From: Deltaproteobacteria bacterium | GTDB lineage: Bacteria > Bdellovibrionota_C > UBA2361 > JAGFJO01 | DNA length: 64,000 nt | Direction: 5' to 3' | Assembly (NCBI GenBank): GCA_024102635.1 | Contig: JAGFJO010000013.1 | Span: 1-64,000, forward strand | Notes under the pieces: generated by a model | Databases searched by the model: none | What the model was told of the DNA's origin: nothing | The model's input: only the letters and a program-made list of their open reading frames with translations | In this document: positions 1 to 1,749 of the stretch, piece after piece | Numbering within the stretch: position 1 is the first letter of the stretch | Layout of the letters: each line of letters begins with the position of its first letter | Position numbers and translations under genes: made by a program

Positions 1-305
1 TAAGATCGTTCCCGCGAATTTATCGCCGAACGGAAAAGCTTTTGAAGAGCTTCTTGGTTAGCTTGAATCTTAAGCGCCTCGGACAGCTCGATCAAATACT
101 GCTCACCACCACCTGAATCAAAGTTCTGAATATACCAATCAACTAACTCAACAAATCGCTCGTTGTCCATCCAGCGTCGAAAAACAAGCATGGTAGCCCG
201 CTCAATTTTTGTCCGGAGTGGATCTAAATTGGGCCCGCAGCCCGCTTCGCCTCCGAGCGATGCAAACTCTTGATCAAATTCCTTCTTAAACTCGGCATAG
301 CTCAT
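1..305 (-). CDS. Hypothetical protein, 3' end outside window; probable first integron cassette gene
   Basis: An open frame runs from ATG at 305 leftwards off the window edge (101 codons visible) with no stop. The product begins MSYAEFKKEF and is acidic and helical-looking, with a Trp/Arg-rich patch (FRRWMDNERF) near residue 50. I do not recognise the family. It is read away from the integron integrase gene at 505 and starts about 30 bases after attI-like GTTAT motifs. This is where the first gene cassette of an integron is expected. An AGGAG sequence lies 17 bases before the ATG, which is too far for an ideal ribosome site, so the start is uncertain. The attC site that would define a cassette would lie beyond the left edge and cannot be seen. 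Confidence 0.55.
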   Translation of the reverse strand, partial: MSYAEFKKEFDQEFASLGGEAGCGPNLDPLRTKIERATMLVFRRWMDNERFVELVDWYIQNFDSGGGEQYLIELSEALKIQANQEALQKLFRSAINSRERS

Positions 306-332
306 CGAGTCGAAATCCAAAACTCCTAAAGG

Positions 333-380
333 GCATAACAAGATCATAACCAAGTCATAGATCAATGGTAGCCGGATAAC
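333..380 (-). other. Candidate attI recombination region (three GTTAT core-like motifs)
   Basis: Read on the minus strand, three motifs of the form GTTATNN lie at 374-380 (GTTATCC), 344-350 (GTTATGA) and 333-339 (GTTATGC), all in the same orientation. They sit between the integrase start and the leftward ORF. Integron attI sites occupy this position and contain GTTRRRY-like integrase-binding cores; GTTAT variants are known from Vibrio-type and attI1 sites. The most likely crossover would be at 333-339, just before the leftward ORF. The call rests on position and short motifs only. Confidence 0.4.
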
Positions 381-422
381 AGCCCCCAATCAATTTTAGA
401 AATTATTTAGCAATTTTCTGTG

Positions 423-451
423 GTTATACTCCAGTGACTGGGTTGATCTAA
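423..451 (-). promoter_or_regulatory. Candidate leftward promoter (Pc-like) for integron cassettes
   Basis: On the minus strand a TATAAC box (423-428) is preceded at 17 bases by TTAGAT (446-451). It points from the integrase towards the leftward ORF, as an integron cassette promoter should. The -35 match is only moderate. Confidence 0.3.
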
Positions 452-503
452 GCACTGAGGATCAACGGGTGGGAGGTGACGGGGTGATCCCACTCAGTTG
501 ATC
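442..503. repeat. Three GTTGATC boxes upstream of the integrase gene
   Basis: GTTGATC occurs at 442-448 and 497-503 on the plus strand and as its exact complement GATCAAC at 460-466. The first two form a perfect 7-bp inverted repeat with an 11-base spacer. The boxes end right at the integrase start. They could be operator sites or accessory integrase-binding sites. No LexA-type CTGT-N8-ACAG box was seen. Confidence 0.45.
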
Positions 504-504
504 C

Positions 505-1749
505 TTGGCTCCGTCGTCGGTGTTGAGAGTTTCAGGGCAACTTATAGTCGATTTGTTCGATAAGTTAGAGGTGAATGGAGAAATAAAGTGCCGCAATGGA
601 GGGGTTGGGGGTGCTCCAACCCTAACGCTATTCGATGCTGTTAGAGCAACGGCTAGAGTTAGGCTTCTTAGCCGTGCGACGGAGAAGAACTATCTACATT
701 GGATTCGGCATTTTTTGCGATTTCACAACAAACGGCATCCAAGAACAATGGGAGAGAAGGAGATCGAGCAGTTTTTGTCTTATCTTTCAATCAGGAGAAA
801 TGTGGCACCGTCCACACAGAGTCAGGCTTTAAATGCCATAGTATTTCTATACCGCGACGTTCTTCGAATAGATCTTGGAAGGTTTCAAAATATTCGCTGG
901 GCTAAACGCACGCAGGCGATCCCCGTCGTATTCACTCGCGAAGAGGTTCGAAATGTTCTTGTGCAGTTTAAGCAAGGTAGTCCACAAAAGCTCATCGCCC
1001 ATCTTCTCTACGGATGCGGATTGCGATTGACCGAAGCGCTCCATTTAAGAGTAAAGGATGTGGACTTTGGACAGGGGATCGTTGTAGTTCGTTCGTCCAA
1101 GGGCGGAAAAGATAGAGTTGTGCCGCTACCAAAACTGTTGGAGAAGCCGCTTCTCCGCCAGATTCAGCGAACTAAAGAAATTCACACTGGGGATCTTAAG
1201 GCCGGATATGGCAAGGCGTCGTTGCCATACGCGCTTGCTACAAAATATCCGAATGCTGGAAGTTCGCTAGCATGGCAATATTTGTTTCCATCTTACAAGT
1301 TGTCAGTAGATCCTCGCTCGGGGGAAACGAAGCGCCATCACCTCTACGATTCCATCATGGAAGGCGCGCTATCAGAGGCAGTGAGAAGATGCGGAATTAA
1401 CAAGAAGGTAAGCTGTCACACTTTTCGTCATAGCTACGCGACCCATTTACTAGAAAGCGGAAAAAACATTCGTGAGATTCAAACCCTGCTTGGACATAGC
1501 AATGTTAAAACCACAATGATCTACACGCATGTTGCGAAGGGGCCCGCTCCGAGGTGTGAGAGTCCGCTTGATTCTCTGTTTGGGTTCTCTGAGGTGCGGT
1601 CGGAACAGGGCCATAAAACGGTAGGAATTGGTGCTTATGACAATAAGAGTAAGGAGGCACTTGCAAGCTCTCTAAGCCAAACGGGGCGTAAGTACCGATG
1701 GGGAAGGAAACTACTCCAACTAATTCGAAGCAAGGTAATTAGGCGGTGA
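505..1749 (+). CDS. intI: Integron integrase (tyrosine recombinase)
   Basis: Site-specific recombinase that inserts and excises gene cassettes at attI/attC. Catalytic residues are visible: R174 in GCGLRLTE, the Lys-bearing SSKGGKDR turn, H305-x-x-R308 in HTFRHSYATHLL, H331 in LLGHS and Tyr340 in TTMIYTHV. The stretch at about residues 214-285, with LPYALATKYPNAG and DPRSGETKRHHLYD, is the extra segment that distinguishes IntI from XerC/D, and SPLDSLF after the Tyr is also IntI-like. The N-terminal core normally begins near residue 40, so the frame carries about 40 extra residues and has no in-frame ATG before residue 82. Translation must start at TTG505, GTG520 or GTG571, and none has a good ribosome site. 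A tail of about 55 residues after the IntI core is unusual. Confidence 0.9.
   Translation: MAPSSVLRVSGQLIVDLFDKLEVNGEIKCRNGGVGGAPTLTLFDAVRATARVRLLSRATEKNYLHWIRHFLRFHNKRHPRTMGEKEIEQFLSYLSIRRNVAPSTQSQALNAIVFLYRDVLRIDLGRFQNIRWAKRTQAIPVVFTREEVRNVLVQFKQGSPQKLIAHLLYGCGLRLTEALHLRVKDVDFGQGIVVVRSSKGGKDRVVPLPKLLEKPLLRQIQRTKEIHTGDLKAGYGKASLPYALATKYPNAGSSLAWQYLFPSYKLSVDPRSGETKRHHLYDSIMEGALSEAVRRCGINKKVSCHTFRHSYATHLLESGKNIREIQTLLGHSNVKTTMIYTHVAKGPAPRCESPLDSLFGFSEVRSEQGHKTVGIGAYDNKSKEALASSLSQTGRKYRWGRKLLQLIRSKVIRR

Follow-up and report, generated by a model that had tools for sequence, protein, structure and literature searches.

The left edge of a 64,000-nucleotide stretch of DNA from an uncultured Deltaproteobacteria bacterium (GenBank assembly GCA_024102635.1, contig JAGFJO010000013.1, positions 1 to 64,000 of the forward strand; hereafter the window) was analyzed. 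It carries the integrase gene and the recombination site, attI, of a chromosomal integron. Further copies of this attI occur in the genome with no integrase gene next to them, and a single integrase would likely insert cassettes at these sites in trans. For the class as a whole a wider reading is put forward tentatively, its chances being judged somewhat short of even. According to this reading the integron is distributed: one integrase would serve many attI platforms, with a separate cassette array starting from each of them, and many clusters of attC sites lacking integron-integrases (CALINs) would be working satellite integrons born with an attI and not leftovers of decay. The genome (G000) is a 3.88-Mb draft of 154 contigs, numbered with a C below, and the window lies on C80.

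Integrase gene and attI site of the window

The integrase gene, intI, was located in an open reading frame (ORF) of 414 amino acids at 505-1749 on the plus strand. The encoded protein belongs to the NCBIfam family TIGR02249, with a score of 413.2 bits (cut-off 265, E 7.4e-124). XerC and XerD models gave 141-145 bits, which is under their cut-offs, and the Pfam domains were Phage_integrase and Phage_int_SAM_4. The closest solved structure was 2a3v (E 6.8e-84), which we take to be the integron integrase IntI4 of Vibrio cholerae. The alignment to 2a3v runs through the IntI-specific insert at 1243-1350 (plus strand), which lies between the catalytic motifs and contains KYPNAG at residue 247, DPRSGE at 269 and RHHLYD at 277. 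The catalytic set R-H-R-H-Y was complete in this alignment (R174, H305, R308, H331 and Y340), with all residues encoded within 1024-1524 of the plus strand. Family homology starts only at residue 42 or 43, and the true start of intI is therefore probably downstream of 505, between there and about 571, where a GTG is one candidate. The 16 best other matches in a collection of 5.8 billion proteins were 64-75% identical to the window protein. A tree of 104 rows placed the protein of the window among the IntI proteins, and an Xer-like protein from the same genome fell far outside. Fifteen of the 16 IntI rows of the class, the window's genome included, formed one group with weak support (87/77); the sixteenth is a partial sequence on a long branch.

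The attI module was found on the minus strand at 339-506. As in a complete integron, an attI with a GTT core adjoins intI, judged from the sequence and from the copies described below. The recombination core GTTATGC lies at 333-339 (minus strand) and forms the junction of attI and cassette, at which the homology of the copies stops. On the minus strand the junction reads GATCTTGTTATGCCC, the core G being base 339, and crossover is predicted to occur after this G. The module contains an inverted repeat where it borders on intI (455-508), which had a z score of about -4.5 when either strand was folded as single-stranded DNA. Behind the core follows an incomplete first gene cassette (1-338, minus strand). 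Its gene (3-305, minus strand) starts with an ATG at 305 and runs off at base 3, with 101 amino acids visible, and its attC would fall past the contig start. Window base 1 is base 1 of C80, so that nothing left of the window is present in the assembly, and the array beside this attI is invisible because C80 starts inside the first cassette. The leftward ORF was 45% identical over 100 amino acids to a C64 gene sitting between two attC sites and is, on this homology, the gene of a cassette. A search for the cassette family with the C64 member (stretch L109:17226-17726) returned only this member itself among 5.8 billion proteins.

A first-pass annotation of the window had read the gene at 505-1749 as a tyrosine recombinase with the IntI-specific segment and all catalytic residues, had noted GTTAT core-like motifs 5' of it, and had proposed the classical layout of integrase, attI and cassette. 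The family score, the motifs and the residues agree with the first point, and the tree bears out the expected grouping with IntI and not with Xer. The core motifs are present on the minus strand, with the junction at 339-333, and the layout is supported: the attI at 339-506 is followed by an ORF with a paralogue between attC sites.

Copies of attI without an integrase

The attI module was found in two more copies in the genome, on C25 (E 7.1e-15) and C75 (E 2.5e-14). The three copies of this type (attI-A) align over about 170 nt, and their divergence begins at the core. C25 and C75 are 87% identical to each other, and each is 72% identical to C80. A whole-genome search with the window IntI gave no intI at C25 or C75. 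A tyrosine recombinase near the C25 copy was considered as an integron integrase and was rejected, the gene being Xer-like. Behind the C25 core lies one ORF of 150 amino acids, in a unit that starts with GTTATACCGCAT and ends with ATGCGGTATAAC, resembling the cassette ends of C64. At E 0.001 the attI-A module had no match in the order's 27 other genomes. A transposon, or miniature inverted-repeat transposable element, was dropped as an account of the repeat because it ends, on one side, in a recombination core that is followed in many copies by a cassette.

A second attI type precedes a second intI on C118 (C118:50830-51489; L006:1297-2223). The product of this gene is 64% identical to the window IntI over 220 residues; its frame ceases to match the IntI family at a point equivalent to about residue 260 of the window IntI and thus is without the C-terminal catalytic residues. 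The same attI type heads an array on C7 and C64 that has no intI, and the two sites are 93% identical over 108 nt. The first cassette of C7 has GAT and not GTT at the junction, and ATC in its R'' box (L124:1396, 980-1077). To judge from the bases, this is a matching, compensated change in the recombination box. In a relative (G032, see below) the intI-linked attI likewise reads GAT at the junction.

attC sites and integrase-less arrays

A permissive attC script gave 57 matches in the loci examined versus 4 in shuffled sequence, and pointed to C64. At the end of this contig six attC sites were found on one strand (79298-79359, 79994-80093, 80874-80933, 81372-81436, 82147-82212 and 82742-82838). 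They share the R boxes, spacers of 4 and 5 nt and a modelled L stem of 12 pairs. All six have two unpaired bases at fixed positions and a variable loop, the features by which attC sites are recognized. In their alignment 96.5% of the cells were paired, and in 11 of 19 pairs both partners had changed. With the partners shifted by 1-3 columns, pairing dropped to 25-43%, a control that favours the structure since it was read from the same sequences; the compensating changes are independent of this.

A covariance model (R1) was built from the six sites. In a whole-genome search R1 gave at least 14 rows with 13 distinct attC sites, a lower bound as 150 of 662 candidates were scored. Applied directly to stretches of five contigs (C64, C7, C2, C28 and C126), R1 gave 17 rows with 16 distinct sites, six of which are the training set. 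The weakest, on C2 at 1827-1891, scored 24 bits and is doubtful. In the window R1 gave no match up to E 10, nor did a gathering scan with Rfam, which to our knowledge has no attC family. The window IntI had no match on any of the five attC-bearing contigs in the whole-genome search, and the IntI profile had none on C7 or on C64:65000-82868.

The end of C64 and the start of C7 overlap by exactly 127 nt, and the two contigs were therefore joined into one array of eight attC sites. With no intI on either contig, this array is a CALIN. It is flanked on both sides by non-cassette genes, and the genes past the array on C7 include one read as an argininosuccinate synthase gene. C2 and C28 begin inside arrays. 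No intI is in view on them, and both run off their contig starts. Their first 127 nt are identical, and the two sequences diverge immediately past an R''-like box (L125:1-130, L126:1-130), which looks like one cassette gene joined to two different attC sites. Between the attC sites of C2 and C28 lie toxin-antitoxin genes (L125:199-1731, L126:802-2051), namely BrnT with a BrnA or CopG-like partner, HigB with a helix-turn-helix partner and a ParE/RelB-like pair. On C126 a lone attC (L127:4424-4484) was found next to an infA-like gene, according to the ORF reading. Together with its surroundings (141 bp) it shares 96% identity with a cassette end of C28, so that one cassette end occurs in two places; this looks like an insertion at a site other than attI.

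As read from these contigs, the integron of this genome is made up of several arrays, and at least the C7-C64 array is headed by an attI-type module without an adjoining integrase. The integron platform proposed in the first-pass annotation thus stands, and so does its expectation that the integron holds genes of unknown function, given the attC arrays with unknown and toxin-antitoxin genes. Of the outcomes that would have spoken against it neither occurred, although the 10-20 kb left of base 1 are not in the assembly. The results depart from that annotation in two points: the array directly left of the window is lost at the contig end, and the integron comprises more than one array.

Extra attI copies in relatives

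IntI scored over the cut-off in 14 of 45 genomes of the class, the window's genome included, which leaves 13 relatives. Eleven of these were tested; G023 and G041, with intI at a contig edge, were left out. The sequence of attI differs between lineages, and each genome was therefore searched with its own attI. In the first eight relatives the 200 nt before intI were searched in the same genome, and the own intI site matched at 100%. Extra attI copies were found in eight of the 11 relatives, 31 in total, and almost all are without an adjoining intI. A first set consists of 18 copies (six in G018, four in G043, three each in G017 and G024, two in G036); a second set comes from G032 (six), G003 (four, besides two intI sites) and G027 (three). 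G003 also carries, on C114, C115 and C132, two full IntI matches and several partial ones under the cut-off, one of them 1.3 kb from the intact intI of C115.

The extra copies are 71-95% identical to the intI-linked attI of their own genome, with different first cassettes and flanks. Homology starts at the recombination core in 26 of the 28 copies that could be placed, the misses being on C1 of G032 and C9 of G003. The three G027 copies are not among the 28, as the intI contig of that genome ends before the core. The far end of the copies lies before the intI start in G043 and in G024, where it is at the same place in all three, and at or just inside intI in G017 and G018. The attC survey of the relatives scored 150 candidates per genome, and R1 matches were found in 8 of 14 solo loci examined from the first five genomes. 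Five loci were positive (C60 of G036, C386 of G043, C147 of G018, C22 and C60 of G024) and three weakly so (C113 of G043, C200 of G018, C209 of G017). All 27 R1 matches, intI loci included, were on the cassette side and strand.

In G036 intI and both extra attI copies lie on one 294-kb contig, which has two separate attC clusters, one of them 33-37 kb from intI with its own attI copies. An ordinary integron with a single array, which the assembler would have split into C80, C64/C7, C2 and C28 and to which the attI-like sequences, as regulatory repeats, would be unrelated, fits poorly with this arrangement. C80 and C25 do end, and C2 and C28 do begin, inside apparent arrays. However, C7-C64 lacks intI and is bordered at either end by non-cassette genes, and the homology of the module stops at the recombination core, beyond which a cassette begins. 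Of the explanations considered, this one is given the least credence.

Mixture of strains or organisms during binning would place foreign attI copies in these genomes, all of which are drafts. The contamination estimate for the window's genome is 3.6%, and the composition of C64 and C86 is somewhat off. The tetranucleotide composition of six other contigs of this genome (C75, C25, C118, C7, C28 and C126) nevertheless matched that of the window with r 0.92-0.96, compared to r 0.19-0.71 for four other genomes. The identity of 71-95% within genomes, together with different first cassettes and flanks, and the single G036 contig are also at odds with a mixture, which is considered very unlikely.

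Some of the copies lie inside arrays. C386 of G043 (L187:1205-6371) has four attI copies, two of them short, in one array, one every two to three genes. These copies and those on C60 of G036 are mostly partial and stand between genes of one array, similar to the ORF-delta-attI arrangement in the available part of PMC12901181. In-array copies could thus be cassettes of the delta-attI type, for which class 1 and class 2 integrons provide a precedent and in which a piece of attI replaces the attC behind a gene. This arrangement was seen in G043 and G036 and not at C7 and C25. It does not suit the copies at array heads beside non-cassette genes (C7, C25, C60 of G024 and C147 of G018), nor the many copies of 170-260 bp, which in G017 and G018 reach the intI start or enter it. 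That the in-array copies are delta-attI cassettes is regarded as possible but less likely than not.

Cassettes at solo sites and conservation near the core

Cassettes behind the solo sites were sought with an own-end test. A site passes when the first 9 or more nt of the unit that follows the core recur within 4.5 kb, as their reverse complement, at the end of this unit. The test was passed by 13 of 33 solo sites and 5 of 11 intI-linked sites, compared to 60 of 2200 random GTTs. The best of up to three candidate GTTs per site was taken, and the chance per site is therefore a few percent. The fourth C386 copy of G043 and all copies of G027, G046 and G048 were left out.

Identity to the intI-linked copy at 7-27 nt from the core was 82-95% in all eight genomes compared (G000, G036, G043, G018, G017, G024, G003 and G032). 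The copies on C9 and C61 of G003, on C1 and C33 of G032, the fourth C386 copy of G043 and all G027 copies were left out, and the G003 set includes the second intI-linked attI. Copies found by similarity favour conserved parts, and this identity is therefore taken as support and not as proof.

These results bear on whether the extra sites are simply dead, that is, inactive remains of integrons that have lost intI, similar to ordinary CALINs. A six-frame IntI search of the loci found short 5' pieces of intI at two solo copies only (C126 of G018 and C209 of G017), and these, as well as the truncated intI on C118 of the window's genome, are what decay would leave behind. Decay would not explain why the window at 7-27 nt stays at 82-95% while much of the module is at about 50-70% in G000, G017, G018 and G043, nor why the three shortest matches of G017 and G018 are just the 34-39 nt next to the core; both points are subject to the same bias of a similarity search towards conserved parts. 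Units with matching ends are, furthermore, about equally frequent at solo and intI-linked sites (13/33 and 5/11). Decay alone is considered unlikely.

Several observations weigh against solo attI sites as platforms served in trans. No extra attI copy was found in G008, G009 and G011; G008 has attC clusters on C139 and C295, yet no extra attI. A length of no more than 34-104 nt was found for several of the 31 copies, those on C1 of G032 and C9 of G003 have no recognizable GTT core, and the copies on C173 of G027 and C9 of G003 are near a contig end, with an intI possible beyond it. The own-end test failed at 20 of the 33 solo sites, including sites with little contig left or without a recognizable GTT. 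The window near the core was best conserved only in G000, G017, G018 and G043. It is matched by a single distant window in G024, and in G036, G003 and G032 identity elsewhere in the module reaches or exceeds its value. In the window's genome R1 finds no attC at the C25 unit despite its matching ends, the contig ending 122 nt later, and no cassette unit lies behind the C75 core. The second attI type could be compared over 108 nt only, as C118 ends before its core. A 72-bp core-less piece of this type (C86:35747-35818; L134:1501-1572) lies between chromosomal genes, and a part of the module can therefore exist alone. The tetranucleotide fit to the window is weaker for C64 (0.82), C86 (0.80) and the short C2 (0.89). 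No promoter of the sigma-70 type was found in the attI module when the cassette promoter Pc was sought, a search that covers sigma-70-like sites only. Finally, all data are sequences from draft genomes, and no recombination was observed.

Controls outside the class

An extra attI match was found in four of five controls from outside the class, mostly short or weak. The match measured 54 bp in Stenotrophomonas sp. YIM B06876, 83 bp (95%) in a metagenome-assembled genome (MAG) of Cycloclasticus and 110 bp (71%) in a Planctomycetaceae MAG; the Luteimonas control had no extra copy. A Verrucomicrobiia MAG (G049) had two extra attI copies of about 310 bp at 88%. Three IntI proteins of G049 score over the cut-off (on C33, C8 and C37), none on the contigs of the two extra copies. 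Three control copies, one from G047 and two from G049, were subjected to the own-end test, and none passed. As the controls were not clean, the solo attI is not claimed to be confined to this class and is probably a wider feature.

Proposed mechanism

Integron integrases recombine the attC of circular cassettes with attI. As copies of attI exist elsewhere in the genome, these places would also take up cassettes through the action of IntI in trans. The window IntI would recognize the C25, C75 and C7-type sites and act on them. The extra copies may go back to complete integrons that were deprived of intI by loss or truncation, which is made probable by the intI remnants and the truncated intI. 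Solo copies could have been retained for a continuing role as landing sites, and perhaps as promoters. The in-array copies of G043 and G036 may instead be cassettes of the delta-attI type. If solo attI sites work, one integrase would allow the cell to load, and perhaps express, cassettes at several loci simultaneously, which would change how integron capacity is counted and how the origin of CALINs is seen.

Comparison with known systems

The integron described here resembles the sedentary chromosomal integrons of Vibrio and Xanthomonas in having intI divergent from the cassettes, an attI and attC arrays. Cassettes with mostly unknown and toxin-antitoxin genes are a further likeness, according to general knowledge and the available parts of PMC9024848 and PMC12444791. 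In contrast to the several attI copies found here, such integrons typically have one attI near the integrase, as far as PMC9024848 could be consulted.

CALINs are similar to C7-C64 in having attC sites without intI, and none is in view on C2 and C28 either. They differ in that C7-C64 and several arrays of the relatives start with a recognizable attI. In the portions available, PMC12444791 and PMC9668308 report that CALIN cassettes can be used by IntI in trans, and PMC9024848 that in complete genomes CALINs and complete integrons occur with about the same frequency. According to the same part of PMC9024848, attI sites other than those of class 1 are not detected by IntegronFinder, and arrays headed by an attI would therefore be recorded as plain CALINs. 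Searches for attI beyond class 1 are rare, so that an attI at the head of an integrase-less array would go unseen; such arrays bear on the question of where CALINs come from. No title or abstract on solo attI sites heading arrays was found in a literature search of incomplete coverage, with few subscription journals.

Cassettes outside an integron are also known from attG sites, and the lone attC on C126 looks similar. These sites are defined by a short consensus; the copies described here, in contrast, are a conserved module of about 170-260 bp. In the accessible text of PMC12444791 an attG is a genomic site of cassette insertion that is neither attI nor attC. The delta-attI cassettes of class 1 and class 2 integrons share with the G043 and G036 copies the position of attI away from intI and inside arrays (PMC12901181, in part). 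They differ in that the delta-attI piece follows a gene and replaces its attC, as described in the same text, whereas the majority of the copies found here stand in front of a cassette, and many are almost complete.

Other observations

An exact 20-mer of the attI core was searched in viral contigs and had no match. The family to which the window's genome is assigned comprises this one genome. Its named CarB matches, at 70-74% identity, are labelled Oligoflexia (2), Bdellovibrionota, Deltaproteobacteria, Dadabacteria and unplaced Pseudomonadota or Proteobacteria. Behind intI, at 1869-2162 of the window, lies a gene for a 23S rRNA-intervening-sequence (four-helix bundle) protein, which matched profile positions 1-83 of 106. 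On the minus strand at 2268-2943 a DUF2204 nucleotidyltransferase-like gene was found together with a gene of 73 amino acids without a family, and this two-gene unit could be a toxin-antitoxin-like pair.

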